From a virus: a DNA stretch of 64,000 nucleotides. This document shows positions 9,224 to 28,627 of this stretch, in pieces; the first letter of the stretch is position 1; each line of letters opens with the position of its first letter. Both the position numbers and the translations under genes were made by a program. Location: the IMG/VR virus record IMGVR_UViG_3300035698_005189, positions 1-64,000 of that record. One strand, written 5' to 3'. Below the pieces are notes generated by a model, which saw only the letters and a list, made by a program, of their open reading frames with translations, was not told the origin of the DNA and did no database searches.

Positions 9224-10699
9224 CTACGCCTCGGCACCCGTGGGCAGCTTGCCGACGTTGACGAAGATGCCGTTCTGCAGAGGCTTCATGATCTGGAGAG
9301 CGCCGTACAAGATTTGCATCCAGCGCACGGACGAATCCACGATCGCCAAGGGAATCTTGGTGAAGGGTGCGAGCTGCTTCCACTTCAGGACGTCGGCCTG
9401 CTGCGAGAGCATGTAGGCACGACCCGTGTCGGGCAGGAATCGGTTGACGTCGACCAGGGTCTGGACGGCTGCGGTGCGCGGGATGCGAAGGATCAGGCGG
9501 CAGGAGGCGGCGGTCCCGTTGATGTCGGACCGGTAGACCTCGTAGTAGGAGGTGTTCGGGCCGTTGTCGGTCACAGCAAGGCTGACCTGATCGGCGGCGG
9601 ACACCACGACGGCTGCGGAGAGCGCTGGGGCGCTCTTTCCGTAGCGGCTGCCGGCGACGACCTTGTAGATGTAGGTACCGGCGTCGGCAGCGGTCCAGAA
9701 GGTCGTGTTGGCTCCCGCGTAGGCCGGGCTGGTCGGCGCGGCGATGGTGGGGGTCAAGGGGCGGGCGGTCGCACGACCGATACCGGCTGCGACCGGGATG
9801 GTCGAGCGCGGGATCATGATCGAGGAGTTGAAGTCGATCTCACCGAAGGGGGTCACGATGGCATTGATGGCGACGCCAGCCTTGCCCTTGGCCCCGATGG
9901 TGGTGCGCTCCTTGGGGTACAGGATCTTGGAGAGGTCCTTGGCGATGCCGGTATCCATCCAGAGATCCGAGGGGGCACCGTAGTTCGGCTCGGCGATGAG
10001 CCGCTCCGTCATGTCGGTGATGTAGTCTTCGGACATAGGCTGGCCGCGCATGTCGATGACGTTGACCTCGTCTTCCCAGCCGGAGAGCTGGCCGTCGTCG
10101 AGGGCGGTGTTGCCCCAGGCGCTGGTCAGGAGCTTCTCGAGGCCATCGAACTGGATGGACACGAGCGACTCGTCGCCGGTGAACAGGGCGCGTTCGAGCT
10201 GGCGCAGGATGTGGAGGGTACCGTTGACCGTCTCACGAGCGACCGCGTTGCCGTGGGCGGCCTTGATTACCGACATGACATGCGTCACGCGGCGGGTCGT
10301 GCCCAGGAACTTGATCTTGGTGTAGTTGCGGCTGTAGGTCGAGTCGTCCTCTTCCGCCAGGTCGCCTTCACCCATGAAGACCGCGTCGGTGGAGCCGTAG
10401 GCCTCGAGGCGGTTGTACTCCTCGACGGTGTTGTAGGCTGCGTCCTTGGCCAACGCCTTCCAGAACTTGATATCCTTCGCTGCGAAAGTGGTCGTGAAAA
10501 GTGTCGCGTCCAAGGACTCGACGCGAAGTGGGAAACCCTCACCGGCGGCGGTACCTGGGTTGTTGATGTCGTCACCGGCGGTCAGAGCCTTGTTCAGCTC
10601 AGCGACGTCGCCGGGAGAGGTCACGCATGCGACGTCACCGGGCTCGGTGCTGGCACCGAGGTAGTCACGCCAGGAGACGGAATCGAGATTGGGAAGCAT
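9224..10699 (-). CDS. Major capsid protein (HK97 fold) with inserted fibronectin-like domain
   Basis: 491 residues. The N-terminal two thirds have the layout of HK97-type capsid proteins (RVESLDATLFTTTFAAKDIKF, a long helix, and GQPMSEDYITDMTERLIAEP with a Trp/Met-containing strand). Residues about 316-415 read as an inserted Ig/fibronectin-III-like domain (GTYIYKVVAGSRYGKSAPAL, then SYYEVYRSD), followed by the return to the capsid core (DVLKWKQLAPFTKIPLAIVD). Located after protease and scaffold genes, as expected. The insert probably projects from the capsid surface. The capsid call rests on synteny plus fold-like pattern. Confidence 0.75.
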   Translation of the reverse strand: MLPNLDSVSWRDYLGASTEPGDVACVTSPGDVAELNKALTAGDDINNPGTAAGEGFPLRVESLDATLFTTTFAAKDIKFWKALAKDAAYNTVEEYNRLEAYGSTDAVFMGEGDLAEEDDSTYSRNYTKIKFLGTTRRVTHVMSVIKAAHGNAVARETVNGTLHILRQLERALFTGDESLVSIQFDGLEKLLTSAWGNTALDDGQLSGWEDEVNVIDMRGQPMSEDYITDMTERLIAEPNYGAPSDLWMDTGIAKDLSKILYPKERTTIGAKGKAGVAINAIVTPFGEIDFNSSIMIPRSTIPVAAGIGRATARPLTPTIAAPTSPAYAGANTTFWTAADAGTYIYKVVAGSRYGKSAPALSAAVVVSAADQVSLAVTDNGPNTSYYEVYRSDINGTAASCRLILRIPRTAAVQTLVDVNRFLPDTGRAYMLSQQADVLKWKQLAPFTKIPLAIVDSSVRWMQILYGALQIMKPLQNGIFVNVGKLPTGAEA

Positions 10700-10756: not shown

Positions 10757-11647
10757 CTAAAAGGCTTTGCCGAGGTGGACGCGGACAGCGGCCTCGACGT
10801 TGGGGGGCAGCTTGCCCGAGGTCTCGAAGAGGGCGGTCGCAGTCCCAAGGGTCTGGATCGCGCCCAGGTCACCGGCGGCGTCGGCCTTGATGACGAGGGT
10901 CTCGAGGGCACCCTTGACTTCGCTCTTGGTGAACTGCTGGTCTTCGGTTCCGCCGGTGGCCCCACGGGCGGGCTGTCGGACGGAGCGGGGGTCGGCGGTC
11001 TTGCCTCGGGGCGCGGCGGGGGTGGCTTCGACGACGCCGAGGCGCTGGGCCAGGGACTTGAGCAGCCGCCCCTGGATGACGGCGTTCTCGGCGACGGCGC
11101 GAGCCACGCGGCCCTGGGCCTTGACCAGCTCGAGGGTCCGGTGGTCGCCTTCGAGAACGCTCGTACCGAGGGCGTCGATTCGGCTGCCGATGCTGTCGGC
11201 CATCGCCTTGAGGACGTCGGAAGCGTCGAACATGTTGCCGACGTCCTCGTCATCGACGAGGGTCTCGGTGAGCGACTTGTTGAGGGCCTCACCACCGCCG
11301 GCGGGGGTACCCGTCCAGATGGCAGCCAGCTCGGTCTTCTCGGCCTTGGAGATGGTGCCGTCGACATGCTTGGCCGTCAGCTCTTCTTCGCGCTGGCCGG
11401 CGGGGTCCAGGCCCTGCTCAACGGCGGCGTAGTCGGCGAGGGCCTTCTGCAGGTCGTCACCACTGAGGCCCTTGCCGGTATCCTCGTCCTCTTCCTCGGC
11501 TTCGGGGAGGGCGTCGTAGTCTTCGGCAGTGACGGTGTCGTCGGCGCCTGCGGACTTGGCCATCTTGGTGTACTCGGAGAAGGGGAGCCCGGCGGGACGC
11601 TTGCCGCCCTTGACGATGCCGTAGGCCTTTTTGTAGGTCATGTTCAT
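10757..11647 (-). CDS. Probable capsid scaffold protein
   Basis: 296 residues, Ala/Glu/Lys/Asp-rich and almost entirely helical, with an acidic patch (PEAEEEDEDTGKG) and long heptad-like stretches (DVLKAMADSIGSRIDALGTS, RVARAVAENAVIQGRLLKSL). Lies between prohead protease and major capsid protein, the usual place of the scaffold. Start ATG overlaps the protease stop region (TAATG-type junction at 11647). Contains several h-x-K-(A/S) sites that could be protease targets. No motif proves the role. Confidence 0.6.
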   Translation of the reverse strand: MNMTYKKAYGIVKGGKRPAGLPFSEYTKMAKSAGADDTVTAEDYDALPEAEEEDEDTGKGLSGDDLQKALADYAAVEQGLDPAGQREEELTAKHVDGTISKAEKTELAAIWTGTPAGGGEALNKSLTETLVDDEDVGNMFDASDVLKAMADSIGSRIDALGTSVLEGDHRTLELVKAQGRVARAVAENAVIQGRLLKSLAQRLGVVEATPAAPRGKTADPRSVRQPARGATGGTEDQQFTKSEVKGALETLVIKADAAGDLGAIQTLGTATALFETSGKLPPNVEAAVRVHLGKAF

Positions 11648-12438
11648 TAGTCGCTCCGTTCGGCGGTGTCGAGGATTGTTTCGATCGTACGGTATGAAAG
11701 GTCGGGACGCCAGCGCTTGAGCGCTACGCGGGATTCCGCCTTGGTAAGCCGTACCGGCTCGGTCGTGATCTCACTGATGGAGGCTGCGACCGCGTCGGCC
11801 CACTCTTCGGCGTAGGCGAGTTCGGTGATATCGTCCAGAACCCGGAGGGCCCCGCCGTCCCCAGCGGACCCACCGGCTCGAGAGTCGAACGACTCTGAGG
11901 ACGGGTAGCCGGCGGACAGTGCCTTGGCGAGCACCGAGAGGTGAGTCTCTCCGTTGACGGGAACATGGGTGATGGCGACGTTGCGGACACGGGCGGATGC
12001 AATCTTGCTCGTGTCGCTTGGGTCGCGGCGGCCGACCTTCCCCTCGATGGAGAAGCCGAGTCGCCTGGGAGTGCCCTTCAGTGCCTTGGCCTTATCCCAG
12101 AGGGCCCGTCCAGGTACGTCGTCGAGTAGGTAGCCTTCGGTCCACCAGCCCCGGTGCTCCGCTACGGTCCCGTCGGGGAGGCTGGCTCCCTTTTCCACGA
12201 GCCTGGCAGCGATCGGGTAGCCGAGGATGTCTACGGTCTTGTTGCCGTGGTTGTCGTTGTACCAGCCGATGTCGAGGAACTCGGAGAAGTCCAGGCCGTC
12301 CTGTACGACGGTCTCATCCTGTTTGTCGAGTCCCTCCGTAGAGACAATCCCACCGATACGCAGGGGATTCGCGTCGCCGGCCTTCTCGAAGGCGACAAGC
12401 GATGCGAATACCTGGAATCCGTTGGAGTCGGTTGGCAA
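11647..12438 (-). CDS. Prohead protease (S78 family)
   Basis: 263 residues as drawn. The catalytic His is H64 in GWYNDNHGNKTVDILGYPI and the catalytic Ser is S130 in RLGFSIEGKVGRRD, followed by VRNVAITHVPVN, the standard herpes/HK97 prohead protease pattern. It cleaves scaffold and capsid-associated proteins during head maturation. The start is uncertain: TTG at 12438 lacks a good ribosome site, and the frame stays open to a CTG at 12492 with GAGG ten bases before it, which would add 18 residues. Order protease-scaffold-capsid is classical. Confidence 0.85.
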   Translation of the reverse strand: MPTDSNGFQVFASLVAFEKAGDANPLRIGGIVSTEGLDKQDETVVQDGLDFSEFLDIGWYNDNHGNKTVDILGYPIAARLVEKGASLPDGTVAEHRGWWTEGYLLDDVPGRALWDKAKALKGTPRRLGFSIEGKVGRRDPSDTSKIASARVRNVAITHVPVNGETHLSVLAKALSAGYPSSESFDSRAGGSAGDGGALRVLDDITELAYAEEWADAVAASISEITTEPVRLTKAESRVALKRWRPDLSYRTIETILDTAERSD

Positions 12439-13042: not shown

Positions 13043-16000
13043 CTACCTCGGGGTCTGTGGGGTCTGTGGGGCGCTGAGACGTAACCCGGGGATGGCCTTG
13101 GCGAGGTCCAGCCTGGATGCCGAGGACACGTCCTCTGCATGTACGGTGTCGTAGTGGAGCGGGTCCCTGATGGCGACGCCGGCTTGGACGTCCCGCATCA
13201 CAGTCTCATTGACGACCTGGCGGGCGCGGCTGGTGGCGCGGACCGATACCTCGGTCAGCACTGGGTACTGGCGCTCGTAGCCGGCGTGGACCGTCTGATC
13301 CTTGGTGCCCTTCTGCTTGTCGCCCTTGATGGTGACCGTCTTCGGCATGACACACGACACACCGAATCGCGTCACGTTGACGAGATACTTCTTGGTCTTG
13401 AGGATGGCGCGGTCGGTTGGGCTGAGTTCGTCGATGACGGCTCGGGCGATATCCTGGTCAGTCACAACCACTCCGCCGGGGGCGGCCCGCATGGAGGCAC
13501 CGACGCGCACCCGGCGCTTGTCGATATAGCTCATGATCTCGTCGGCCCTGATAGCCAGGTAGATCGCAGTCGGATCAAGGGAGGACGTACCCTCGAGGAC
13601 GTACTCGGCCCCGGCGAAGGCGGCCCGGTCCTCTGGGCTCAGCTTGTCGATCGCTGCGGTGACGGCAGCCACGGCGCTGTCGGTGAGAGCCACCGGGTCG
13701 TCGTAGGTCCCGACAGCCGGGTCGGTGGCCGTCACGCCGCCGATGGGGAAGTCGATGACGTTACCCGACCCACCTGGGATCGGCGTGGTCTTCAGGTCCT
13801 CCAGGACGGCGGCTGCGTGCTCCGTCCCAAGGGTGGCGGCGACGTTCGCCTTGTTCGACAGGGCGGCCCACTCCTTGACCTGGGTGTCTGTGGGGTCGTT
13901 CGTGTCGCTGTGAACCATCATCGCGGCCGACTGGCTGGCGATGACCCGGCACGCGGCCTCGATGCTCTGCGTCGGCAGCTGCTTGCTGGCGTATTCGCCG
14001 AAGCTGAGGGTGAGGCCCTTCACCTCGCCCTGAGGGGCTCCACGCGGGGCAGGGCGGAAGGCATCGGGTTCCATCTCCTTGAGCTTGGTCACCGGGCCTG
14101 GGGTCGTGACGATATCCTCGACGTTGACCCACTTGTAGCCGGTGGCTCCGTCGGCCTCCTTGTACGACACTGGGACCACGGAGAACTTGGGGGACTCGCC
14201 AGGGGCGGCCTCGGTATCGAAGCGAGCCTCGGGTCGCTCCGGGTCGGGAGCGAGGTCGCGGTTCATGAACGCGACTCCGGTCGCACCGGCTGGGACACCC
14301 AGGGCTGAGACGATCCGGTCATCCTTGAGGGACTGACGGACTGCCGGCGGGAGCATACGAGCGCAGCGCGTGATCCGCTGCATCTCGGAGGCGGGGGAGC
14401 CGAGCGAGTCATACATGGCCAGCTCGGTGGCGTTGCCGAAGTTGAGGCCGACCTGGGCGGCGTCGGAGCACACAATGGCTTCGCAGTTGTTGAAGACGTC
14501 GCGCTTCTTCGGTGTCAGGGCCTCCGTGGTGGTGGCCTCCTTCTTGACGATCCCGGCGTACTCTTCCTTGAGGACCGCGTAGGCTTCCTTGCCGGCGGCG
14601 AAGGCGGCCTTGGCTTCCTTCTGCTCTTCGGGGGTCTTCTTATTGAGGTCGATCAGAAGGTCGTTCGGGTCACCAGCCAGGGCCATCTCGCGGAGGATAG
14701 CCGCCGATCGCTTGGTCCCGTAGAAGTACTTTTGAACCGCGTTGGGCCCGGACCCGTCGACCCAGAAGGCCTCCGGGGCATCGATCTTGAACTGCTGCCT
14801 GATCTTCTTTCGCGTGTCGTCGGTGAACTGGCTCATCTTGATGCCGGTTTCGTCTACCTCACCGGAGTAAGCGACCCACTTTCGGCCCCGCCCGAGCTTG
14901 TCCACGAAGACAGAGGTCTCCATGTCGCGCCCGAGCCTGTCCTTTACCTTCTTGAAGATCTCGGCGTTCAAGTCGCGGTTGCCTGTGTAGGTGGACCCGA
15001 TGTAGGTCACGAAGTAGCGACCGTTAGGGGAGGGTCCGGAGTCGGCTGGGTCGTAGTGCGGGCTACCCTCGATGGACTCGTTGACGTCCCTGAAGCCCAT
15101 CGTCCTCATGGTGGCCTCCATGGTACGACACCCGTCGAGGATGCCCCCAGCCATCATCACGAGTTGGCGGCGGCCCTCGGGCCCGTCGATGCCGCCTGGC
15201 CCATGGAACTGACCGACCCAGCCGGCCAGCTGCTCGGCCTTGGCGTTGCCGACCACCATCGCTACGTCGGCCTTGGCGCGCTCGTCACGGTGGCCGGGGT
15301 CGAAGATGCACGAGACGCGGGCCGCGACCTTCTTCTGAGCCACCCAGGTCGCTGCTCCGTCATCCTGGTTGACGACCACGCACTCCCCGACATGCTGCCC
15401 GGCCTCATGGGCCTCGGCGGTGGCTTCGGCGTCGTACTTGAACAGCGGGGGCTCCCACTCCTTCTTTTCAGTCGCTGACAGGCCACGGTCAGGCCTGACC
15501 CCGGCGTTGCCCTTGACGTCCACGATATCGCCTGGCTTGACCTTGTCGAAGCCACCGGCGCTCCTGGGCTTGCCGGTGTCCGGGTCGATGTCCTCGGGAC
15601 GGTAGAGAAGGTGGAGCGAGCCACGGGTATCGGACACCCAGCCCTCGCCCTCCATCACTGTGACGCCGCCGTAGGTTACGAAGTCGTGGTGGATGGTCTG
15701 GTCGGGTCGGATGCTCATGAGGCGCGACACCTCAGCTGGGTCGGACCCATCCTCGGTGGCGATCTGCTTGATGGTCTCGGGCATCCCCATGACGACCACG
15801 CGCTCAGACGGCTGGCCTTCGTCGTCGACCACGACGGCTACGCCCTTCTTGCCGATAAGCTCCCGGGCGCGGCGCTGGATCTCGATCGCCTTGTCGATGT
15901 CTGGGTCTGGCGGGGCGGGGGTGTCGGACCCGCGACAGCGGATACCGAGGGGACCCGCCTCCGGGTTCTGCACCTTGCGGGGCCAGCCATCGGCTCGCAT

Positions 16001-19000
16001 GGCCTTCAGTTGGGCCTTCGTGATCTTGGTACCAGCCACAGCACCGTAGTCGGCTCCGATGATATCGCGGAGGTGGAGCGTGTAGACGTCGGCCTCACCG
16101 GGACCACCCTCGAGGTCGGTGACCTCAGGCCAGCGACCAGCCCACTTGCCCCTGATCTTCTTGTCTGTGAACCAGTCAGGAGACCGAGTGTAGAAGTCGC
16201 CCTTGATGGCGTTGTCACCGGCGGACCGGCTGATCTGTACAAACTTCGAGTCGGACTGCGGCTTGTAGGCCGGGCAGTTGGAGATGGCCTTGGCTGCCAG
16301 GACGTTGCGCTTCGCGTCTCCGCTGAGGCCACGGAGTTCGTCTGCGCCGACCCAGCCACCCTCTGTGATCTTGTCCTTGTCGGCGTCGGTGAGCTTGGCC
16401 AGGTAGGCTGCGTACAGGATCGCCTGCGTGCCGGTCATATGGGCAAAGTGGGTCTCGTCCATGCGGGTAGCTGGGAGGGCCTTGCCCTTGACATCCTTCG
16501 TAGTGACGATGTGAGTCCAGCGACCGATGGTAGCGGCCACTTCCTCCCGCTTCTCGGGCTTCACGGAGATCTTCGGCCCAGCCGTTGCGGCCCCGGTGAG
16601 TCCGGGTACGACCGACTCTTCGAGGTACTCCTCGACGAAAGAATTGCGACTCATGCCGCCCCACTGCTCACCACGCGACAGGATCTTGACGTACTCGAGG
16701 AAGTCGGCGGGGCTGGTGGTCATCGGCGTGCCCGTCATGAGCACGACCATCTTCATCTTGTCGTTCCACCGGCGGAGGGCCTTGTTGCGGAGCGACGTGG
16801 AGGACTTGAGCCCGAGATGGGCTTCGTCTCCGACGAGGCCGTCGAAGCCAGCCGCGATGAGCTTATCTTCGTTGAGGGCCCAGTACTCGGGCCCGACTAC
16901 GACTGTGTCCTTACCGTAGGTCCCATTCTCGACACCCTTGAGGAAGGCGTCGGCTGGGATGTCGTTGGAGCCGGCCCCGACGACATGGCAGCCTACCGTG
17001 GTGAACGTATCGGAGGCTTCCCGCCACTGGTCCACGGTGTTGAGGGGAGCGACGATGATCACCTTCTTAGGTGCGTCGGGGTGGCGCTGGGTCGGATCGG
17101 CTGGGTCAAGGAGCGCCATCATCGTGCGAGCGCAAGTCAGGGCTGTTACGGTCTTGCCGGTCCCCATGAAGTGACCCAGTAGTCCTCGTCCCGCGTTGTC
17201 GAGGACGAGCTGGGTGCCGGCGGCCTGGTGGTCGGCCAGGGTGAAGGGCACCCCGTTCGGGAGGACGGCTCGCAGGCCTGTGGGGGCGAGGACGCCCGGG
17301 ATGCCGGCGGCCAGGACCTTGGGGTCGATATCGCGTAGCTCGAGGATGTGCTCCTTCTTAACGGCGCGGGCAGCGATCTCGTTCAGGTGGTCGGCCCTGT
17401 CGCGTAGGATGGCTTCGGCCTCTGAGGTAAGCGACAGACCGCCAACGGTCTCGCGGAGATTGGCGAACCCGGCGATAGACACGACCAGCGCGCTACCTGG
17501 CCCCTTGTGCTTATCAATCCGGTTGATGCCTGGCAGCTCCATAAGGTCGCCGTCATTCACACGACCCGACGCAGGGGTCAAGATCCGGAGTTCAGATGCG
17601 ACCACAGCGCCAGTCCGCTTGTCGACTTCGTCATGGCGGTAGATAAGTAGGCCGTCGGCCAGCCGCTCGGGGGTGGTCCCGGGAGCCACGGGGCGGACGG
17701 TCCGCCTGATCTCGTCCTGAGAGAACCGGACAAGACGACGCCCGGCGGCTCCGCCGCCTCCGACGCCGATGAAGATGTGTCGGTCAGGCCAGTCCTCAGC
17801 TGTCCAGTCCTCGACGTTCTCATCGTGGTTCTTGGTAGCAGGGTCGAGGATCGCAGTCTTCCAGTCGCGGTGAGCGGCGTCTTCTGGGTACCACCCAGGC
17901 AGTAGGCCGCCTCGCATGAGCTTCACTTCGGCCTTGGTGGGCTTGAAGGGTACAGGCGGCTCACGGTCGCTGCGCTGGAGTTCCTGGGGGTCGCCCTCGG
18001 CTGACGGTGGCATCCGGTCCCAGCCCGGGGGCGACGGCTTCTCGCCAGCCGGCTTGCCGGGCTCGATCCCGGTGTACTTGGCGATAACGTCCTTACCGCT
18101 CTTCCGGTCGAGTTCGGCTGGGGAGGCCTCGACGACGACGTTGTCGTATTTCTCGGGTACCCACTTCTCGCTGCGGACAGCAGGCTTCTTGATCCTGATC
18201 TTTTCGCCAACCACTGGCGCACGCGATACCTCGGTTCCGCCGAGCTTGACGACCGTCTCCCGGATGGTGTCATCGGGGACGGGGGTCGAGATGATGATAC
18301 CACCTTCGCCGTCGAGGATGGGGTCAGCGTCGTAGCCCTTGGCTATCAGGGCGGCGGCGAGTGCCGTGAGCCCGGCCCGGGTCTTGTCGTTCTTCTTGGG
18401 CTCCTTGGGGGTGCGATTCTTCGCCTTCTTGCCCGGCTTCTTGGGTACGACCAGCCGCAGGTTGGCGGGCTCGATCTTTACTCCGGTACCGCTGTAGGTG
18501 ACGTGGACGAGGGATTGGTCTTTCTTGATTCCCAGCTCATGGCCCATCGCCTCGAGGTCGGCCTTGATGCGATACGCCAGATCCTTCGACGCGGTCCGGT
18601 GCTCACCGGGGGTCGCTGGGACATGCTCGACGTCGGTGTGGCGGTAGCCGCCCACAATCCGGCCCTGACCCAGGAGGTCGTCGAGACGAGGCTCCTTCTT
18701 GCCGGTACGACGCTCCCACTCGGTACCGAGCAGTCGGGGCTGACCCCGCCCGTCAAACTCGACCTGGACGTGGAAAAGGTGACCGGTGTCGCCGCCGGTA
18801 GTATCGGTTGCGACCGAGATCCAGGCACGACGACGCTCCGAGGCGGCCTTTTTGCATAGATCCTGCAGGTGCTCGGGCGAGCGGACGTCTTCGAAGCCGC
18901 CGGGGGTCAGTAGCTCTCGCCACATCGGGGACTCGATGAAGAAGCGACCGTGACGACCGTCCTCCCCGGACGTATCGGCCAGGACGTCTATCGCAGTCTT

Positions 19001-20950
19001 GGTGCCGTCCGGGTTGTCGTTCAGGTAGGTGATGCGGGCCCGCCGGGGGAGCATGGAGCCATCGGCTTGCTTGTCGAGGATCAGCTGGTTCGCCAGGAAC
19101 TTGCCGGTAGTCGGGTCCCTGGTGACCTCTCGCATAGCGTGTCGTGTATTCTTGGTCAGCCAGCCCTTGAGGGCCTCGGCGTGAGCCTCGGGGGTGGTCG
19201 CAGCGCGGAGGGCGTCCCACTCCCGATGGCCTGCGGCGTCGAAGGCGTCATAGGCGAACGTTCCTGACTTCTGTCTAAAGTCGTTGGCTGTGATCTCGAC
19301 GGGAAGGTGGGGGAGGGCGGCCTCGGCCTCGGTGGCGTCTTTGCCGAAGGCGGTCCGTCCCAGCGCCCGGAGGTACTCGTTGAGCTGACGGCGGCGGAGG
19401 GCCTTGATGTTCTTGGGGTCCCGGGAGTCGAACCCCATGAGGTCGGCTACGTCTGCGTGCTCGTCTGGGAGGGCGTCCTGGTTCAGGTACCACCAGGCCT
19501 TCATCGTGGTGAGCGGGTTGCCGTCTCCGTCGTACATCTCCTTGAGTTCGCCGATGCGTGGGCGGACCTTGGAGGCCTCGGGGTTGGTCGGGTCCCAGCC
19601 CATGACTGGCTTGTCTGGGGAGATGGGGCCGACTCGCATGAACATGGTTCGACCGGATACGCTCATCTCGTAGAAGCGGTCGTAGTTGCCCTGGTTGCCG
19701 GTGGCTTCCCGGTTCGGTGGCGGCATCTGCAGGAACCCGGTCGCTGGCGGGCTTTCGGAGACACGGAGGGCTGTGGCGACAGCCGTCTCCTTGGTTTTCC
19801 ACCAGGCCAGCCGGTCATCGTCCTTGGCCATGTCGAGGATGCCGACACACCAGTCGGCCTTCTTGGCAGCCTCCCGGGCGGCAGCTGGGTTGGTACCAGA
19901 CAGGCTCTCTGCGATGGCCAGGTGCTTGGCTTGGCCTGCCTCATCGGTCGCCAGGGGGCGGAGGACGTCTTTACCGAAGAACGACCTGAAGAACTCGTAA
20001 GCCCCAGGCGCGGCGACAGCGAGGTCGTGGGGGTACATCACAGCGGCAGTGAACGACTCAGCCCAGCGCTCGAAGTCATTCGTCAGGGAGTAGGGGGTGA
20101 CGCCCTTCTCCTTATCGCCGCCATCTCGCATGAACTTGATCCAGTCAGCCCAGACAGGTCCGTCGTAGTCTTTGTTGACGTCCCGCGCCTTTTCGCCTCC
20201 GTGAGCCCCGAGCTTGTTGTGTACGGCGTGCGCCATCTCGTGTACGAGGCACTCGACCATGAACGCCGAGCCCTTCATTCGGTGGCCCCAGCCGCCCTGG
20301 CACTTGTCATCGAGGATGGTCAGGTCTGTGACCATGTCGCCATTAGCGTCGTAGGAGGGGGAGGCCAGGCCTGCCCAATTCACGCCGTTGATCTTCTTTC
20401 GTCCCCGGGGGTCCTCGTCGGCGGTCGTGAACTTGATGTTACGAATCAGGCCATCGAAGTTGTCCCGAATGATGGGCGGGAGCAGTCGCTGGGCGGTGTC
20501 GACGGCGCGGTAGTTGGAGATCTGGGCGCCATGCGGATCGTCAGGCTCGGTGTCGCCGCCGTTGTAGAGCTTGTTGATCCCGTTCTCGTACACCTTCTCC
20601 GCCTGCTTCGACAGGACGATGTGAGGCGGCTTCTCCCAGCCCAGGTAGGCCTCGAGGTACTCCGATGACAGGGCCGATAGTCGCTTTCGGGCTCCCTCAG
20701 TCTCCGGGTTCTCCTTGGCGAAGTCGGCCTTGGTCCGATGCACCAGCTTCTGGTGGGTCGCATCGGCTGCTGTGACGTCGGCAGCGAGGCGCTCCATCCA
20801 CTTCCGGCGCTTGTTGTCGTCTGGGTAGTAGTAGACCCACGCGAGCTTCCCGTTGACCATTCGCCTGACGCGCTTCCAGTACTTGTGCGACCGTGAGGTG
20901 CCACGCGAGAAGCCACTGGCGGCCTTTGCGATGCTGAGTCCGGGCTTCAT
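13043..20950 (-). CDS. Giant 2635-residue virion-type protein with zincin and superfamily 2 helicase domains
   Basis: Residues 1-50 carry a basic aromatic segment (HKYWKRVRRMVNGKLAWVYYYP) preceded by IAKA. Residues about 230-305 contain HEMAH (237-241) and, downstream, FERWAESF with a Glu spaced as a third zinc ligand, so a zincin metalloprotease is likely. Around residue 1262 is Walker A GTGKT, then VIIVAPLNTVDQW, DEAH near 1373 and LMTGTPMT, all typical of SNF2-like/superfamily 2 motors. The C-terminal RecA lobe is near 2160-2200 (AAQVGLNFGNA, QRITRCARML). The rest is long linker and unassigned domains. It resembles the polyvalent proteins described for phages and conjugative elements. Injection with the genome is inferred from position between MuF and protease genes. 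Confidence 0.75.
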   Translation of the reverse strand: MKPGLSIAKAASGFSRGTSRSHKYWKRVRRMVNGKLAWVYYYPDDNKRRKWMERLAADVTAADATHQKLVHRTKADFAKENPETEGARKRLSALSSEYLEAYLGWEKPPHIVLSKQAEKVYENGINKLYNGGDTEPDDPHGAQISNYRAVDTAQRLLPPIIRDNFDGLIRNIKFTTADEDPRGRKKINGVNWAGLASPSYDANGDMVTDLTILDDKCQGGWGHRMKGSAFMVECLVHEMAHAVHNKLGAHGGEKARDVNKDYDGPVWADWIKFMRDGGDKEKGVTPYSLTNDFERWAESFTAAVMYPHDLAVAAPGAYEFFRSFFGKDVLRPLATDEAGQAKHLAIAESLSGTNPAAAREAAKKADWCVGILDMAKDDDRLAWWKTKETAVATALRVSESPPATGFLQMPPPNREATGNQGNYDRFYEMSVSGRTMFMRVGPISPDKPVMGWDPTNPEASKVRPRIGELKEMYDGDGNPLTTMKAWWYLNQDALPDEHADVADLMGFDSRDPKNIKALRRRQLNEYLRALGRTAFGKDATEAEAALPHLPVEITANDFRQKSGTFAYDAFDAAGHREWDALRAATTPEAHAEALKGWLTKNTRHAMREVTRDPTTGKFLANQLILDKQADGSMLPRRARITYLNDNPDGTKTAIDVLADTSGEDGRHGRFFIESPMWRELLTPGGFEDVRSPEHLQDLCKKAASERRRAWISVATDTTGGDTGHLFHVQVEFDGRGQPRLLGTEWERRTGKKEPRLDDLLGQGRIVGGYRHTDVEHVPATPGEHRTASKDLAYRIKADLEAMGHELGIKKDQSLVHVTYSGTGVKIEPANLRLVVPKKPGKKAKNRTPKEPKKNDKTRAGLTALAAALIAKGYDADPILDGEGGIIISTPVPDDTIRETVVKLGGTEVSRAPVVGEKIRIKKPAVRSEKWVPEKYDNVVVEASPAELDRKSGKDVIAKYTGIEPGKPAGEKPSPPGWDRMPPSAEGDPQELQRSDREPPVPFKPTKAEVKLMRGGLLPGWYPEDAAHRDWKTAILDPATKNHDENVEDWTAEDWPDRHIFIGVGGGGAAGRRLVRFSQDEIRRTVRPVAPGTTPERLADGLLIYRHDEVDKRTGAVVASELRILTPASGRVNDGDLMELPGINRIDKHKGPGSALVVSIAGFANLRETVGGLSLTSEAEAILRDRADHLNEIAARAVKKEHILELRDIDPKVLAAGIPGVLAPTGLRAVLPNGVPFTLADHQAAGTQLVLDNAGRGLLGHFMGTGKTVTALTCARTMMALLDPADPTQRHPDAPKKVIIVAPLNTVDQWREASDTFTTVGCHVVGAGSNDIPADAFLKGVENGTYGKDTVVVGPEYWALNEDKLIAAGFDGLVGDEAHLGLKSSTSLRNKALRRWNDKMKMVVLMTGTPMTTSPADFLEYVKILSRGEQWGGMSRNSFVEEYLEESVVPGLTGAATAGPKISVKPEKREEVAATIGRWTHIVTTKDVKGKALPATRMDETHFAHMTGTQAILYAAYLAKLTDADKDKITEGGWVGADELRGLSGDAKRNVLAAKAISNCPAYKPQSDSKFVQISRSAGDNAIKGDFYTRSPDWFTDKKIRGKWAGRWPEVTDLEGGPGEADVYTLHLRDIIGADYGAVAGTKITKAQLKAMRADGWPRKVQNPEAGPLGIRCRGSDTPAPPDPDIDKAIEIQRRARELIGKKGVAVVVDDEGQPSERVVVMGMPETIKQIATEDGSDPAEVSRLMSIRPDQTIHHDFVTYGGVTVMEGEGWVSDTRGSLHLLYRPEDIDPDTGKPRSAGGFDKVKPGDIVDVKGNAGVRPDRGLSATEKKEWEPPLFKYDAEATAEAHEAGQHVGECVVVNQDDGAATWVAQKKVAARVSCIFDPGHRDERAKADVAMVVGNAKAEQLAGWVGQFHGPGGIDGPEGRRQLVMMAGGILDGCRTMEATMRTMGFRDVNESIEGSPHYDPADSGPSPNGRYFVTYIGSTYTGNRDLNAEIFKKVKDRLGRDMETSVFVDKLGRGRKWVAYSGEVDETGIKMSQFTDDTRKKIRQQFKIDAPEAFWVDGSGPNAVQKYFYGTKRSAAILREMALAGDPNDLLIDLNKKTPEEQKEAKAAFAAGKEAYAVLKEEYAGIVKKEATTTEALTPKKRDVFNNCEAIVCSDAAQVGLNFGNATELAMYDSLGSPASEMQRITRCARMLPPAVRQSLKDDRIVSALGVPAGATGVAFMNRDLAPDPERPEARFDTEAAPGESPKFSVVPVSYKEADGATGYKWVNVEDIVTTPGPVTKLKEMEPDAFRPAPRGAPQGEVKGLTLSFGEYASKQLPTQSIEAACRVIASQSAAMMVHSDTNDPTDTQVKEWAALSNKANVAATLGTEHAAAVLEDLKTTPIPGGSGNVIDFPIGGVTATDPAVGTYDDPVALTDSAVAAVTAAIDKLSPEDRAAFAGAEYVLEGTSSLDPTAIYLAIRADEIMSYIDKRRVRVGASMRAAPGGVVVTDQDIARAVIDELSPTDRAILKTKKYLVNVTRFGVSCVMPKTVTIKGDKQKGTKDQTVHAGYERQYPVLTEVSVRATSRARQVVNETVMRDVQAGVAIRDPLHYDTVHAEDVSSASRLDLAKAIPGLRLSAPQTPQTPR

Positions 20951-21259: not shown

Positions 21260-23371
21260 TTACCTCGTGCCGGTTCCGTTCTTGAAGAGTGCGGTCATCA
21301 TACCAGACAACCCACCGCTGGGCTGCTTTGCGTTGACGTCGTGGACCGTCCCAGGGGCGCTAATAGCCAGCTCTGGATCTACTTCCGTGTGAGCGGTCAT
21401 CGCTCTAAACTGAGCAATCCGCTCCTTGTCGCGCTGCTGCATGTATGCTCGTCTGGTCGACTCGACCTGCGACGGCGTGCTCGTGCCGGCTACTTCGGCG
21501 TCGAGCTGGGCTCCTACGGCATCGGCTGTGCCAGCCCGGGAGGCGGCCTGGTAGACGTAGACTCGCTCGTCGGTGCCGAATCGCTCCTTGAGGTCACGGT
21601 GCGATGGGCCCGAGGCCTCGAACTCAGGCCAGACCTCTTCGGAGGCCACCCACTGGTCGATCCGGTCCCGGAACGACGCATCGCGTGCGGTGGCGACTCG
21701 CTTGAAGCTCTCGGTTGCTGTGTCGAGCGCAGCGGCGGCTGCCCTGCGCTTGGTCGGGCGGGACTTGCCCTCGGCGAGCCCCAGCGCCTCTGCGACGTCA
21801 TCGAGGGAGCCTGGCTCGCCGTCATTGTCGAGACCGAACCTGACCCGGAGGGCTGTGCGGTTGTCGCCGTCGGCCATGGCCCCGAGGACGTCGTCTACTT
21901 CCTCCCTGACGTGGAGGGCGGTGCCGGCTGTGTAGGCCCCAGCCCCGCTCATCGGTAGGATGGCTTCCTGGTGGATGAGCCACTCTTCATTTCCGACCAC
22001 CCGGTCGCCACGGACGAGGTCGCCCAGGGTGTGGACGAGTTGCACCTTGCCGGGGTGGTCCTTGCCGAGTTCGTCCCCGTTGGGGGTCTTGATCTTCCAG
22101 GGACCGTCGGGGACCTCTTCGGAGCCCTGGTCGATGGTCTTACCGTCGTCGGTGACGTAGTTGCCGAGGTCCTTGCCCTGGTAGACGTCCCGCTTCTTCA
22201 GTCGCCATTCCGTAGCGGTCTTCTCCGGGGTCGGCTCGATGCCGAGGCCCTTCTTGCGGGCTCTGGTCCTGGCAGCGATGAGCCCGCCGATTACCTTCAT
22301 CTTCCTGTCGGGGATGGTGATGCCGGCCCCGAGTTCGGTCCGGGCCGCCTGCAGGGCGTAGGTCATGGCGAAGTCTTTGGCGTGCCCCAGGAATGGGGAG
22401 CCTCCTCCGTACGTCGACAGGCCCATCGCGAATCCGTAGTGGGCTCCGCCCAGAAGCTCTTCGTACGCGGCGGATGGGCCGCCTCCGGGAGCTACGCGTG
22501 CGATACCGTACCGCTGAGCGATACGCTTGGCTGCCCCGTGGATGAGCGGACGAAACTCAGCGAGCGTGGCAGCCTGTTGCTGCTTGGGGACCGCTACGCC
22601 GTCCCGCCACTTGCCGAGCGAGTTCTTCACCCGCAGGACAGCGAAGCCGCTGTGCTCCATGTCGTGCAGGATGGTGCCGGGCTCTGCGCGTGACTCAGCG
22701 AAGGGCTTGAGGCGACGAGCGGCGTCGGACACCGGGCCCTCTTCGGATGGCTTTTTGGGAGGCTCCACATTTACCGGCCTGCGCTGAGGCGGGGGCGGAG
22801 GTGGCTGGTGGCGCTTAGGAGGCGGGGGCGCGTCCTCTGGGGGCTTGGGTGGCTTCGCCTTCGGCTTCGGCGACTCCCGGCGGAGGGGGACGAGAGTAGT
22901 CTCCCTGGCCAGGTGGTGGCTGCCGGGGCTGGTGACCGAGGTCACCCAGACACCGCCTTCGGGCGCGGCGGCGTGGTCCGGGGTGACCCGGTAGAGGCCC
23001 TGCCTGCCTCCGACCTCAACGACGTCGCCGGCCTTCACGTTCTCGTAGGTCCTGGTGGGGTCGCGTTCCCAGGGGTGGGCGTCGTGCTCACGGTGTCCTG
23101 GGTACCAGTACTCGTAGCCCTTAGAGCCCTTGGCCTTCTTACGATATCCGCCCTTCTTGCCGCCGGGGATGGCTGCCCAGCCAGCGCCGGGTGGGGCATG
23201 AATCGCCTTGCTCAGGTCGGCCTGAGATTCCTCAGCTGCGATCTCGTCCCAGGCCTCACGGAGGCCGGCGGGGACGGGGTACCACTCGACATCGCGGGTT
23301 CCGTCGTCAGCGAAGTCACCGTCAACCATCCGAGGGTCCACCGGGACCGGGAGGGCTGCTACCTTGGCCAT
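21260..23371 (-). CDS. 703-residue virion-type protein with a sigma-70-like domain
   Basis: Residues 53-56 are LSKA, followed by a Gly/Lys segment (PGGKKGGYRKK, 69-79) and YEYWYP (86-91), then a small beta domain (about 107-165), a Pro-rich linker (168-210) and a C-terminal half with sigma-factor layout. Residues 270-348 (RPLIHGAAKRIAQRYG, YEELLGGAHYGFAMGLSTYG, FAMTYALQAARTEL) resemble region 2. Residues 352-392 (IPDRKMKVIGGLIAARTRA, EPTPEKTATEWRL) resemble region 3. Residues 500-550 (LRVRFGLDNDGEPGSLDDVAEALG, PTKRRAAAALD) resemble region 4. If real, it would be a virion-borne transcription factor. The family is by eye; confidence in the reading frame is high. Confidence 0.65.
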   Translation of the reverse strand: MAKVAALPVPVDPRMVDGDFADDGTRDVEWYPVPAGLREAWDEIAAEESQADLSKAIHAPPGAGWAAIPGGKKGGYRKKAKGSKGYEYWYPGHREHDAHPWERDPTRTYENVKAGDVVEVGGRQGLYRVTPDHAAAPEGGVWVTSVTSPGSHHLARETTLVPLRRESPKPKAKPPKPPEDAPPPPKRHQPPPPPPQRRPVNVEPPKKPSEEGPVSDAARRLKPFAESRAEPGTILHDMEHSGFAVLRVKNSLGKWRDGVAVPKQQQAATLAEFRPLIHGAAKRIAQRYGIARVAPGGGPSAAYEELLGGAHYGFAMGLSTYGGGSPFLGHAKDFAMTYALQAARTELGAGITIPDRKMKVIGGLIAARTRARKKGLGIEPTPEKTATEWRLKKRDVYQGKDLGNYVTDDGKTIDQGSEEVPDGPWKIKTPNGDELGKDHPGKVQLVHTLGDLVRGDRVVGNEEWLIHQEAILPMSGAGAYTAGTALHVREEVDDVLGAMADGDNRTALRVRFGLDNDGEPGSLDDVAEALGLAEGKSRPTKRRAAAAALDTATESFKRVATARDASFRDRIDQWVASEEVWPEFEASGPSHRDLKERFGTDERVYVYQAASRAGTADAVGAQLDAEVAGTSTPSQVESTRRAYMQQRDKERIAQFRAMTAHTEVDPELAISAPGTVHDVNAKQPSGGLSGMMTALFKNGTGTR

Positions 23372-23372
23372 G

Positions 23373-24863
23373 CTACACGTCCTCGAAGAGAGTCGGATTC
23401 GCCCCGGCCCGCTCCACAGCCCACTTCCGGAATACTTCGGGGTGGATGTAGGAGGCCCGGGCGACAGCTGGGGTATTGTTGATCAGGGAGGCGACCTTCT
23501 TGGATGCGACGAACATGGCCTTAGCCAGGAGGCGCTTATCGCTCTTGGTGTCACCCGTGAGCGGCGGAGGGGTGTCGGTGGCGTTGATGGATCGCTCCGC
23601 CTCCTTCGTCGCCAGGATTGTCCGCAGATCCTTCAGGTACATCCCAGCGGGGAGGATGTCGCGCGACGCAGCGAGGGCCGCTCTGCCGAACAGCGGACGG
23701 TTGCGATGGCCGCCTCCCTTGGTGTAGTGGGACACGGCCTCAGCGATAGCCTTGTTCCTGATCGTGGCGGTGTTGGTCTTGCCCTGTTTCCCGACGAAGT
23801 CGAACTTGACCACGTTGCCCTCGACGGAGACGTGAGCCGACGTCAGGGTGGAGACGCCGTAGCGGCCTGCCAGCATCCCTGGCCCACCAGGCCGGAGGCC
23901 AGTCTTGGCGATAATCGCAGTGATAAGCGCGGCCTGATGGTGACGCGACCCAGGCTCGGCCCGGGACAGCTTCGACTGGATGCCTCGCACGATCTTGGGG
24001 TGGTCCTCGATAAACGACTGGACGCGGGCCCACTTGGCGGCGTCGGAGGCAGCGTGGAACTCGGGGGTATACCCGGACTGCGGCCGACCGGCCCTGTCTT
24101 TCCATCGGATGACAGCCGTCTTGTGCGGGTCGCCGTCGAGGCGCATGGTGATGGCTGGCAGGGGGATGGCGGCCTCGGGCAGCTTGCTTACGCCGAGGGC
24201 CTTCAGTCGCGCCAGGACGTTCGGATGTAGCTGGGAGCCTGGCGGGCGGTGCTTCTCGGGCTTCTTGGGTCGCCCTCGCGTAGCGGGAGCCCCAGCCTTC
24301 CACGGGATCGTATGCTTGGCGTCGGCCCACTTACCGCCTCGAGGCCCGATGAAGGGGCCGCCCGACTTGGCCAGGATGATGGCGGCACCGAGGGAGGCCT
24401 CACCTGAGGCAACCATGGCCCCGAAGTCATCGAGGGAGATCTCGGTGACCCCGGCTACGGCCTTGCCTCCCAGCGGGTGATGGGCGCAGAAGGCGTCGAG
24501 GGCTGCATCGCGGTCTGGGAACCACAGGAAGATCTTGTCTTCGTCATACCCGATAGCGCTGGGGTCGTAGTCTTTCTGGTGAACGACGTAGACCATTTCG
24601 TTGGTCGGGTCGGGTCCGACGTAAGCATCCACAGGCTGCCCATCGGCCCCGAGAGTGCCTTCGACCTCGCCGTACGGGAATCGCATCACGGCGGCCCACG
24701 GCTTGCCCTCCGGGTCCCGGCCCCGCCGGACCTGGCCGGCTGCGTTCTCGACTGCGACGGTGACGCAGGGCGAGATGGCTATGCGGCCGACGAAAGGGAA
24801 CGGGTCCCGGTTGGGGCTTGGGGGAGGGAGCATGGCCCGGCCACCCTTCGACGCGATGATCAT
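23373..24863 (-). CDS. Fusion of a pyrophosphatase-like domain and DNA topoisomerase IB
   Basis: 496 residues; ATG at 24863 in an ATGA overlap with the MuF-like gene and AGGAAG upstream (the frame itself opens earlier). Residues 20-150 (FVGRIAISPCVTVAVENAAG, YGEVEGTLGADGQPVDAYVG) match the inorganic-pyrophosphatase-like domain found in polyvalent phage proteins. Residues 166-190 are a tag-like segment (KSGGPFIGPRGGKWADAKHT). Residues 230-480 show topoisomerase IB: Arg324 (TGLRPGG), a hairpin Lys (FVGKQGK, 359/362), Arg414 (YLKDLRT) and the nucleophile Tyr472 (SYIHPEVF). Expected to relax supercoils through a 3'-phosphotyrosine intermediate. All key residues appear present. Confidence 0.85.
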   Translation of the reverse strand: MIIASKGGRAMLPPPSPNRDPFPFVGRIAISPCVTVAVENAAGQVRRGRDPEGKPWAAVMRFPYGEVEGTLGADGQPVDAYVGPDPTNEMVYVVHQKDYDPSAIGYDEDKIFLWFPDRDAALDAFCAHHPLGGKAVAGVTEISLDDFGAMVASGEASLGAAIILAKSGGPFIGPRGGKWADAKHTIPWKAGAPATRGRPKKPEKHRPPGSQLHPNVLARLKALGVSKLPEAAIPLPAITMRLDGDPHKTAVIRWKDRAGRPQSGYTPEFHAASDAAKWARVQSFIEDHPKIVRGIQSKLSRAEPGSRHHQAALITAIIAKTGLRPGGPGMLAGRYGVSTLTSAHVSVEGNVVKFDFVGKQGKTNTATIRNKAIAEAVSHYTKGGGHRNRPLFGRAALAASRDILPAGMYLKDLRTILATKEAERSINATDTPPPLTGDTKSDKRLLAKAMFVASKKVASLINNTPAVARASYIHPEVFRKWAVERAGANPTLFEDV

Positions 24864-25819
24864 TTCTTCCTCCTGACGAGCCTGCCGGCTACGCCGATAA
24901 CGGTCGGGACCGCCTGGCCAGACCTCCAATCCTCGGGAAACCGTAACATATCGGGAACGCGGAGCATCGAGCAGGCGCACCAGGGATGCATCGTGCCCAC
25001 CACGGCCTGCCAGTCGGCTTGCTTGCGACCGACGTTGGTTCCATTGTCGGTAAGATCGTCCAGGTAGAAGATCCGGGGGACACCACCCGAGAGGTAGAGT
25101 CGGATGCAGTGAGGGCAGGCGGTCGCACGCGGGAGCTTGTAGACGCGCTGGCGGCGGCCCTGCGGGGCGGACTCCTGCCACCGGGCGGCCTTGCCTTCCT
25201 GCACTGTGTTCTGGAACTCGGTCTGAGCTATTCGCTGCAGGTCACGGGTCCAGTCTTTAGTGAGGTGTCCCATGTCGCTCGTCATGCGGCTGACGGTGGA
25301 GCGGAACTGGCCGTCGAGGAAGTCGTCGGTCAGGCCTTCCTCCGCCCCGATCTCCTTGAGGCGGGCGGACGCATCCTCGTCGCCAAACCTGGCGGCCACG
25401 ACATCGCGCATGATGCCCCGGAGGCGGCGGTCCAGCGCGGCGTCGGCTTCGACGAGCATCTTGCCGGTGGCCTCTTCGACCCGGTTGCCCAGGCCGACGA
25501 CATACTGCGCGGCACGGGCGGACGCGATCTCAGCTGAGAGGCGCTCTTCCCGAGTCTGCGGGATCGGGCGGTCAGCGAAGTGCGCCATACCAAGATCGTA
25601 TCCGGGGCTGCCGCTGGCGGCGATGGCTGTCCCGGCGGCGAACACAGGAGCCACCAGGCCAGGCGACGCGTCCTCAACGAGTCCGAGCCCAACGGCTGCA
25701 CGCCAGTCGAGCTTGGTGGCGGAGGACTTGCCTCCGATGGCGGCGGCGGCAGCCGCGTGGTTCCGTCTGAGGACCTCGGCTACGCGTCGTCGCACCTCTG
25801 GGGTGACGAGGCGGGCCAC
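24860..25819 (-). CDS. MuF-like minor head protein
   Basis: 319 residues. The C-terminal part is the MuF signature: RIAQTEFQNTVQEGKAARWQ, then a CPHC pair, Asp-rich loop (YLDDLTDNGTNVGRK) and HPWCACSM, a Cys/His set probably binding zinc. The N-terminus is helical and variable, as usual. MuF proteins sit inside the head near the portal and are often fused or linked to injected effector domains; here the effectors are in the adjacent genes. Overlaps the next gene by ATGA. Confidence 0.85.
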   Translation of the reverse strand: MARLVTPEVRRRVAEVLRRNHAAAAAAIGGKSSATKLDWRAAVGLGLVEDASPGLVAPVFAAGTAIAASGSPGYDLGMAHFADRPIPQTREERLSAEIASARAAQYVVGLGNRVEEATGKMLVEADAALDRRLRGIMRDVVAARFGDEDASARLKEIGAEEGLTDDFLDGQFRSTVSRMTSDMGHLTKDWTRDLQRIAQTEFQNTVQEGKAARWQESAPQGRRQRVYKLPRATACPHCIRLYLSGGVPRIFYLDDLTDNGTNVGRKQADWQAVVGTMHPWCACSMLRVPDMLRFPEDWRSGQAVPTVIGVAGRLVRRKK

Positions 25820-26971: not shown

Positions 26972-28627
26972 TCATACGTTGATCTCGTATCGAGTCACCC
27001 GCGCCGGGCGGGCTGGCCACTCTGACCTTATGGCCTTCTCAGCGGTGTCGTCCAGCTCGTCGCCCCAGGCACCGTCCCCGTCCTCGGGACTGAAGTCGAA
27101 GTCGGCATCGGATGCCTCGTCCTCCTGAGCCGGTTCGCCAGGCGCTCCGGGCTCACCAGGACCACCCGACCCGCCGCCCATGTCGGGCTGCTCTGCGGCT
27201 TCCTGGGCTTGCTTGTTCTGGAGCCAGGTCGGGTCGAGGATGATCTCACCGAGCCCGTCAGGCATCGGCTCCATCCCGGCGGAGTCGCGGGCTTCGTCGA
27301 CCGTAACGAAGACCTTGGTCTGCTTGGCGAGAAGTTCGGCTTCGGCGTCGGGGCCCTTCTCGGACAGGCCCACGGGGACCGCCTCGAAGTCGTCGTCGAG
27401 CTGCCGGACGAAGTAGGTGTTGAGGCACTCGAAGAGCCACTCGACCAGCGGTCGCAGACCGAGGTCGCGCGACGCCTTGAGCTTCTCTTCGATGGACGAC
27501 TGACCCATGGCCCCAGACTGCCCGGTGTTCCCGTAGCTGAAGTTGACCTCTTCGGGTGCGATCTGGAACCGGGCGCAGACGACCTTGATCAGGAAGTCCA
27601 GCCAGGAGCTGTACTCCATATCACGATTCGACATCTGCATGTTAATCCACTGCAGCTCTTCGGCGTTCGTGATCGGGGTGCGCCAGGCGTTGGATACGCC
27701 GCTGACCATCGCGTGCCACTGGCGGCGGAAGCCGTCCAGCTGGCGCGACGGGATCGGGCCCTTGAAGTTGAGGATTCCCTTGGTCGCTGAGCCCTGTGAG
27801 AAGAAGCGACGATTGTACTCCATACCCCACAGGAACCCCGTGATCTCACGGACCAGGGTCTCGATCTCGGAGATGCCGTAGCCGTAGGCATGTAGAGACG
27901 TCCTGGGGTTGCGGGTGCAGAACGCCATCTCGTCTGGGGCGAAGTCGGCGAAGACCGACCCGTTGATGACCTGGACGGCGTAGGGGTCGCCTGACGACCG
28001 TGTGCCTGGGTCCAGCAGGCGGATGGTGTCGGCTGCGAGTAGGGACAGGTAGGCCGGCTGGCCCTTCCGGTTGCGTACGATCTCGAAGGGGGCCTGGTCC
28101 CAGATCAGGGAGTTCTCGACCATCATGCGGCCGAAGGTCCGGAGGGGTACGCCGTCCTGCGGGCGGTTGTCTGGGACCACGCCGGTCGTCAGGAGCAGCG
28201 CCTCCAGCTCACCGGCTCGCTTGTCGGAGGCCCGGGTGACCTTGGCCTTCTTGTCGCGGAGGCGGACCCGGAAGCCAGCCCCATGGCGATCCTCGGGCTG
28301 GACAAGGAACGTCGCCACCTGATTCGCCCGGACCTTGATGACGTCGGCGACGACAGGTACTCCACGACCGATCATCTCCATAGCCCCGTAGGACAGCGAC
28401 GTCGGCCGCTCCCGGTAGCCCATGGCAGCGACGAGGTCGAACGGGTCCCAGTGGAGCCCCTTGGGAGCCTCTTCGGTATCCTTGACGTTGCGGGCGGGGC
28501 TCGTGATGGTCCCGGGGTCGGCTGGCTGCGCCGACCGTGGGGCCTTGCTGATGGAGTCCTCCACGGCGACCGTAGCCCGTCGGGCCACGGCTCCGCCGAG
28601 AGATGTGAGGTCGTCGCGCAGGCCCAT
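26972..28627 (-). CDS. Portal protein
   Basis: 551 residues. The HK97/SPP1-type portal pattern is visible: a crown/wing region with ANQVATFLVQPEDRHG, the stem part with LHAYGYGISEIETLVREITGFL, YNRRFFSQGSATKGILNFKG, and NREMEY-like sequence (MSNRDMEYSSWLDFLIKVVCARFQIAPEEVNF), then a long acidic Pro/Gly-rich tail. It forms the dodecameric ring for DNA passage. Close to TerL, as expected. Residues 26-29 are ISKA, a possible protease site. Confidence 0.9.
   Translation of the reverse strand: MGLRDDLTSLGGAVARRATVAVEDSISKAPRSAQPADPGTITSPARNVKDTEEAPKGLHWDPFDLVAAMGYRERPTSLSYGAMEMIGRGVPVVADVIKVRANQVATFLVQPEDRHGAGFRVRLRDKKAKVTRASDKRAGELEALLLTTGVVPDNRPQDGVPLRTFGRMMVENSLIWDQAPFEIVRNRKGQPAYLSLLAADTIRLLDPGTRSSGDPYAVQVINGSVFADFAPDEMAFCTRNPRTSLHAYGYGISEIETLVREITGFLWGMEYNRRFFSQGSATKGILNFKGPIPSRQLDGFRRQWHAMVSGVSNAWRTPITNAEELQWINMQMSNRDMEYSSWLDFLIKVVCARFQIAPEEVNFSYGNTGQSGAMGQSSIEEKLKASRDLGLRPLVEWLFECLNTYFVRQLDDDFEAVPVGLSEKGPDAEAELLAKQTKVFVTVDEARDSAGMEPMPDGLGEIILDPTWLQNKQAQEAAEQPDMGGGSGGPGEPGAPGEPAQEDEASDADFDFSPEDGDGAWGDELDDTAEKAIRSEWPARPARVTRYEINV

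Follow-up and report, generated by a model that had tools for sequence, protein, structure and literature searches.

We proposed that P0001, a protein of 2635 residues encoded among the head genes of an uncultivated myovirus, is a capsid cargo of the polyvalent class that is directed into the procapsid, loses both of its termini to the prohead protease and is finally ejected; the probability of this reading was estimated at roughly 60%. We infer packaging from the sequence, and it is backed by more than gene position, since the ends of P0001 are of the head-protein type and carry a putative protease motif. As a protein, P0001 is a further member of the polyvalent class. The novelty lies outside its zincin and SNF2 domains, in a predicted code of sites and tags at the termini and between the domains. 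If true, terminal peptides of the kind that P0001 has in common with other suspected cargo of the phage could account for the loading and trimming of giant phage proteins.

Gene, neighborhood and homologs

The window analyzed here is a stretch of 64,000 nucleotides and represents a portion of a 98,094-base virus record. Baseplate_J, baseplate proteins, a family A DNA polymerase and a DnaB-like helicase are encoded outside the window in the same record, and a CobT-like vWA-domain protein of 800 aa (L002:7363-9765, minus strand) was observed in the same phage. The initial annotation had claimed a single open frame of 2635 residues at 13043-20950 and named no strand. The frame was located on the minus strand, with an ATG start and a length of exactly 2635 aa, and the plus-strand reading of these positions was interrupted by stops.

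All of the genes listed in this paragraph are on the minus strand. Read 5' to 3', the large terminase TerL (31537..33180) is followed by g853 (28989..31550), a 120-aa protein (28630..28992), the portal protein (26972..28627), three small frames, a MuF-type minor head protein (24860..25819), an InPase-topoisomerase IB fusion (23373..24863), g703 (21260..23371), g102, P0001 (13043..20950), g100, a prohead (head maturation) protease (11647..12438), a scaffold-like protein (10757..11647) and an SPO1-type major capsid protein (MCP, 9224..10699). The place of P0001 between the MuF-type gene and the prohead protease, as annotated, was thus confirmed by the gene order. The protease was assigned by phrog_1028 (E 6e-35), the MCP by phrog_752 (E 8e-79), SU10_MCP and its SPO1-type relatives, and the portal by Pfam/PHROG-type matches. 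The MuF-type protein was recognized by eye from a CPHC...HPWCAC signature and gave no Pfam or PHROG match, and the scaffold-like protein was named from its position and its count of Phi-x-K(A/S) sites.

P0001 alone found no relatives in a whole-protein scan of the viral contigs and no match among the PDB sequences (phmmer), and only short helicase-lobe matches, in Parabacteroides phages, were obtained among the annotated phages. The homologs were reached via the capsid-protein loci first and by an alignment search second. In six contigs, the loci of which had been fetched with the capsid protein, a P0001 homolog is encoded immediately upstream of the protease, and the alignment search resulted in 27 loci. 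The identity to P0001 was 25-51% in the 17 aligned sequences, and both the zincin and the SNF2 domains are conserved in these homologs. Since full-length homologs of such identity are found at the equivalent position of further viral contigs, the architecture of P0001 is not due to chance. The regions of residues ~380-1100 and 2240-2635 gave no Pfam or PHROG match, which does not in itself point to a new fold.

Zincin and SNF2 domains

Two RecA lobes of an SNF2 ATPase were located at residues 1255-1522 (16385..17188; GTGKT, DEAH and TGTPMT) and at residues ~1926-2204 (14339..15175; SDAAQVG and QRITRCAR), and motifs I, II, III and VI are all present across them. The Pfam matches were SNF2-rel_dom at 1255-1522 (E 2.5e-12) and Helicase_C at 2154-2199 (E 2e-5), a PHROG DNA helicase matched with an E of 4e-32, and Foldseek related this part of P0001 to the SNF2 structures of Rad54, ISWI, CSB and SsoRad54 of Sulfolobus. 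Invariant in the 17 homologs are K1266, D1375, E1376, G1407, T1408 and P1409 of lobe 1 as well as Q2191, R2192, R2195 and R2198 of lobe 2. Based on these profile matches, motifs and fold similarities, P0001 is classified as an SNF2-type dsDNA translocase, in agreement with the earlier reading of a full SNF2-like helicase with GTGKT, DEAH and a C-terminal lobe. No methyltransferase domain was detected in P0001 by Pfam or PHROGs, and a match to phrog_11801 was confined to the helicase part (1236-1317). Being devoid of a methyltransferase domain, P0001 is therefore not a methylase-helicase dyad of the DarB type. A separate DNA methyltransferase gene is present at 58105-58977 of the window, apart from P0001.

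The zincin domain covers residues ~90-328 (19967..20683), with the active site H237, E238, H241, Y287 and E294. The HEMAH motif that had been pointed out together with a downstream Glu corresponds to residues 237-241, and the assignment held: H237, H241 and E294 were each found in 16/17 homologs, E238 in 17/17 and Y287 in 15/17. The AlphaFold2 model of residues 1-1075 had a mean pLDDT of 68, mostly >80 over residues 230-380. Aligned by VIA-align, its 90-328 part scored a Z of 12.8 to the M34 peptidase domain and 9.9 to PPEP-1. Domain-by-domain structure prediction had been suggested as a check, and both folds were recovered by AlphaFold2 and fold search. The peptidase domain is a zincin of the M34/PPEP fold, a likeness that says nothing of its substrate. 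It shares with these peptidases the fold, the HExxH motif and the spacing of the Tyr and the third Glu ligand. The sequence identity to them is 12-20% only, and no Pfam match to the family was obtained.

One homolog (L111:6621-13400) carries REVGR in place of the active-site motif, as well as Y287F and E294H, and retains E298. Both His are lost and the zincin is dead, yet the leader and the hairpin described below and the helicase are intact. Because E294 was lost jointly with the His and Tyr residues, the comparison points to E294 as the third metal ligand. The same pattern of loss shows that the peptidase can disappear from a protein that otherwise persists.

Terminal sites and tags

P0001 starts with MKPGLSIAKA. 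Residues 1-9 form an N-terminal leader (20924..20950) that ends in the site IAK|A, with a predicted cut at K9|A10, and K9 is kept in 16/17 homologs. The full-length homologs possess a short leader ending in Phi-x-K(A/S/G), e.g. MKYVIPTRRLGVTEDVLEKA and MKFGLNLDHPTYTPDELEKA, and leaders of the MKYVIPxRR..LxKA type occur in relatives. The leader is followed by a hairpin tag, tag C (residues 22-45, HKYWKRVRRMVNGKLAWVYYYPDD; 20816..20887), which was modeled by AF2 as a two-strand beta-hairpin with strands 26-32 and 35-42. A tag of this type, HKYWRRV...GKxxYxYYY, is conserved after the leader in 17/17 homologs, and it is the basic and aromatic N-terminal tag that the initial annotation had correctly recognized. 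At the other end, the C-termini of the homologs contain K(A/S) and then a short trailer, e.g. TQKSFSRFFIPFSKFKGDA and ELAKALKLVFDVQKLRSMAWN. In P0001 itself (LAKAIPGLRLSAPQTPQTPR), the trailer comprises residues 2619-2635 (13046..13096) after the site LAK|A, with a predicted cut at K2618|A2619.

The strict Phi-x-K(A/S) motif was found within the last 40 aa of 18/30 homologs compared with 10.9% of the control windows (P~1e-10). With P3 relaxed (K[AS]), as was needed for the homologs lacking the strict site, 28/30 homologs had a C-terminal site versus 36.5%. The P0001 family as a whole showed no enrichment of the motif (309 vs 288); hence, the sites are located at the ends. The internal motifs ITKA near residue 1642 and IDKA near residue 1686 are not conserved in the aligned homologs, and they could be cut too.

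The motif was also counted in the head genes against shuffled sequences, the shuffles and the binomial tests ignoring relatedness. The scaffold homologs (n=59) contained 561 sites against 66 in the shuffles, and the ratios were 585/116 for the protease, 324/122 for the MCP and 147/78 for the portal, part of the protease and MCP sites being conserved fold positions common by descent. TerL is absent from the mature head; used as a negative control, it showed no enrichment (15 vs 21). When triads were scanned without a preset motif, L.KS was the most enriched in the scaffold homologs (211 vs 9.9). In the MCP, a candidate site LNK|A is present near residue 35 (10586..10597), where LxKAL is near-invariant among the MCP relatives listed, while the surroundings and the N-terminus vary. 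Scaffold and capsid proteins are classical substrates of prohead proteases and, because the motif is enriched in these proteins, the prohead protease of the clade most likely cleaves at Phi-x-K|(A/S). P0001 thus has a terminal leader with a motif shared by the scaffold and the MCP, as is characteristic of capsid targeting of the T4 type, the protease being the putative reader of the motif.

The prohead proteases of the clade, in the loci of the MCP relatives, begin with F-x-F-x-(I/L)-P...(W/F)EK(A/S), in which a strand and a targeting peptide are indistinguishable from sequence. The F-x-F-x-I-P start was set aside as a targeting peptide, since it is explained equally well as the initial strand of the protease fold.

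A different function of the motif was also considered. Phi-x-K(A/S) may be a docking motif, that is, helical or linker peptides that join scaffold, capsid and cargo, with the hairpin tags acting in binding and the cargo left uncut. A binding motif would be expected to be most frequent in the scaffold and to mark cargo ends, as is observed here, and cleavage at the motif is so far a prediction. However, a short site with a small P1' residue, dense in the scaffold and placed between domains, looks like the substrates of T4 gp21 and SPN3US gp245 (PMC5694885, PMC10052503). Moreover, the prohead protease gene adjoins the scaffold gene. Docking was consequently regarded as unlikely, and the motif is treated below as a candidate cleavage site.

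Three short tags, A, B and C, recur across the proteins of these phages, with a Phi-x-K site preceding them. Tag B (consensus GGPFIGPRGGKWADPxHTIPW) occurred in 108 distinct contexts within the loci analyzed, and a Phi-x-K site stands just before 89/99 copies of GPRGGKWAD, compared with 7.5% of random positions in the same proteins (P 3e-88). The tag C hairpin was found in 53 contexts and many genes, 48 of them with the site upstream, and tag A has the consensus GxGWxxIPGGKKGGxRRR...YEYWYP. Known polyvalent domains (ddrB-ParB, SNF2, InPase, zeta toxin, ART, RadC, DarA_C and LPD1) were identified in 33 tag-B proteins, and wherever the domains could be located the tags lie outside them. Clustering of the tag-B proteins with the tags masked resulted in one large linked group; as mosaic domains link all of them, no count of independent families is given.

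In the window, the site ILAK|S with tag B (GGPFIGPRGGKWADAKHTIPW; 24300..24377) is placed exactly between the InPase (Pfam E 2e-27) and the topoisomerase IB (Topoisom_I E 8e-16) of the fusion protein, the likely ATG start of which overlaps the stop codon of the MuF-type gene. The 703-aa g703, homologs of which adjoin the P0001 homologs, contains LSK|A with tag A (GAGWAAIPGGKKGGYRKKAKGSKGYEYWYPG; 23096..23215). Two copies are present in g853, which adjoins TerL: LRK|A with a degenerate tag A (31080..31178) and FIVK|A with tag A (30147..30242). The 120-aa protein between g853 and the portal has the sites LVKA, VVKA and VVKA (3 observed vs 0.25 expected) and could be a small core protein that is cut to pieces. 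Additionally, one P0001 homolog (L010:3-3425) has a post-helicase extension with tag B and tag A segments, so that an additional portion of the polypeptide is linked to the tags.

Proposed pathway and related systems

In the proposed pathway, the terminal peptides would target P0001 into the procapsid through the scaffold, and the prohead protease would cut off both the leader (at K9|A10) and the trailer (at K2618|A2619). Given the few internal sites, the trimmed protein would be essentially whole, ~2609 aa. It would then be ejected with the DNA, the SNF2 motor would travel along the incoming duplex in the host and clear or block host proteins such as restriction enzymes, and the zincin would cut one or few host proteins. 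We infer these host roles by analogy, from the protein families only. The neighboring tag-bearing proteins have the same code but internal sites, and would therefore behave as polyproteins, the InPase-topoisomerase IB protein being cut between its two enzymes. Extended to the whole clade, the proposal is more tentative and was given slightly less than an even chance: a Lys-specific site Phi-x-K|A/S/G and one of three transferable tags of 20-30 residues would form a common code, polyvalent proteins would be true polyproteins, their many different enzymes would be separated by the capsid protease while still in the head, and the tags would act as mobile cassette joints in a large, almost wholly uncultivated phage group.

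Polyvalent proteins were described in 2017 by Iyer et al. (PMC5512222) as disparate enzymes in one polypeptide among head genes. P0001 resembles them in its very large size, its unrelated enzyme domains and its proximity to head genes. The assignment to this class made in the initial annotation was supported by the unrelated zincin and SNF2 ATPase and by the portal, MuF-type, protease, scaffold and MCP genes around. The combination of the two domains, which had been called notable, is real but less unusual than thought, since the Acetonema longum prophage protein WP_004096050.1 was listed with SWI2/SNF2 and zincin together in the same text (PMC5512222). P0001 differs from proteins of the Acetonema type in that no methyltransferase was found in it. 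The available text of PMC5512222 names no terminal targeting peptides, prohead-protease punctuation or such tags. In the open-access literature, that paper was the only one found to deal with both polyvalent proteins and a prohead protease, and no earlier statement of the code was met there.

It was proposed in the same 2017 text that domains are released by embedded zincin peptidases (PMC5512222). Accordingly, the zincin of P0001 might itself be the processing enzyme that frees polyvalent domains by autoproteolysis; according to that paper, no polyvalent domain is commoner than the zincin and processing occurs in P1 DdrB, and the catalytic residues are conserved in 16/17 homologs of P0001. 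However, both His, the Tyr and E294 are gone in L111, which retains the leader, hairpin and helicase, the InPase-topoisomerase IB protein has a site and a tag and no zincin was detected in it, and the distribution of the motif follows the scaffold and capsid proteins, which are known protease substrates in other phages. Processing by the zincin is thus improbable, and trimming by the prohead protease was preferred.

For such trimming, capsid targeting sequences cleaved by gp21 are known in T4 (PMC5694885), and P1 DarB needs no more than its first 30 residues to be loaded into the capsid (PMC9024508). Both are direct precedents for the ends of P0001. The T4 internal proteins and Alt share with it a short leader at the N-terminus, the last residues of which form a protease site common to the scaffold and the capsid protein. 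The T4 gp21 motif has Glu at the P1 position. P0001 differs in having Lys at this position and a C-terminal trailer too, as well as a hairpin tag that would stay on the mature protein. The ejection proteins of SPN3US and phiKZ are similar in that several of them have propeptides cut at a common motif, but the site is of the AxE type, the propeptides are long and no domain-separating tags are described in the available text (PMC5694885, PMC10052503). Phage P1 DarB resembles P0001 in being >2000 aa long with an SWI2/SNF2-type helicase and an N-terminal targeting sequence (PMC9024508, PMC12810830). It contains an N6-adenine methyltransferase before the helicase, whereas P0001 has the zincin instead and no methyltransferase match. 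The MCP of phage P1 is cut after Glu (E120|S121; PMC9024508, PMC12810830), in contrast to the Lys predicted at the P1 position in the clade of P0001.

That P0001 is made in the infected cell and merely located in the head operon, where a large DNA motor could, judged from its SNF2 domain, serve replication or packaging, is the least probable reading considering its conserved place beside the protease and scaffold genes in several viral contigs, its ends of the head-protein type and the precedent of DarB loading.

For the loading and cutting of very large multi-enzyme phage proteins, self-cutting by zincins was the proposal of 2017, and the predicted site/tag code offers an alternative that can be tested specifically and cheaply. 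The code may also serve to search for capsid cargo of unknown function. The predicted cuts would escape standard tryptic proteomics, as trypsin itself cuts behind the Lys in question. Should the leader prove active on reporters, T4 and P1 would be joined by another targeting system.

Further, the tags were sought in other genomes. Among 50,697 phage records, none matched tag B, a 30-residue query being at the limit of tblastn; among 84,980 species genomes, the tag was found in 3 contigs. A search with the terminal leader returned matches at E 6-8 only, of which the one in Microbacterium phage Hendrix was meaningless; the match in Thermus phage Lalka led to the hairpin tag. In the cultivated Thermus phage Lalka27b, gene 5 (PQ109077; L226:12016-13299) starts with MAKA...GHKYIRRWWDAKAGRWRYEYY, a C-type hairpin tag, and it is located near the portal and a DarB-like gene. 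A Myxococcales chromosome (CP070713.1, MAG) contains a portal gene (43% identity), after which a tag-B protein and an InPase-type gene are encoded; this locus may be a prophage and hints at the host group.
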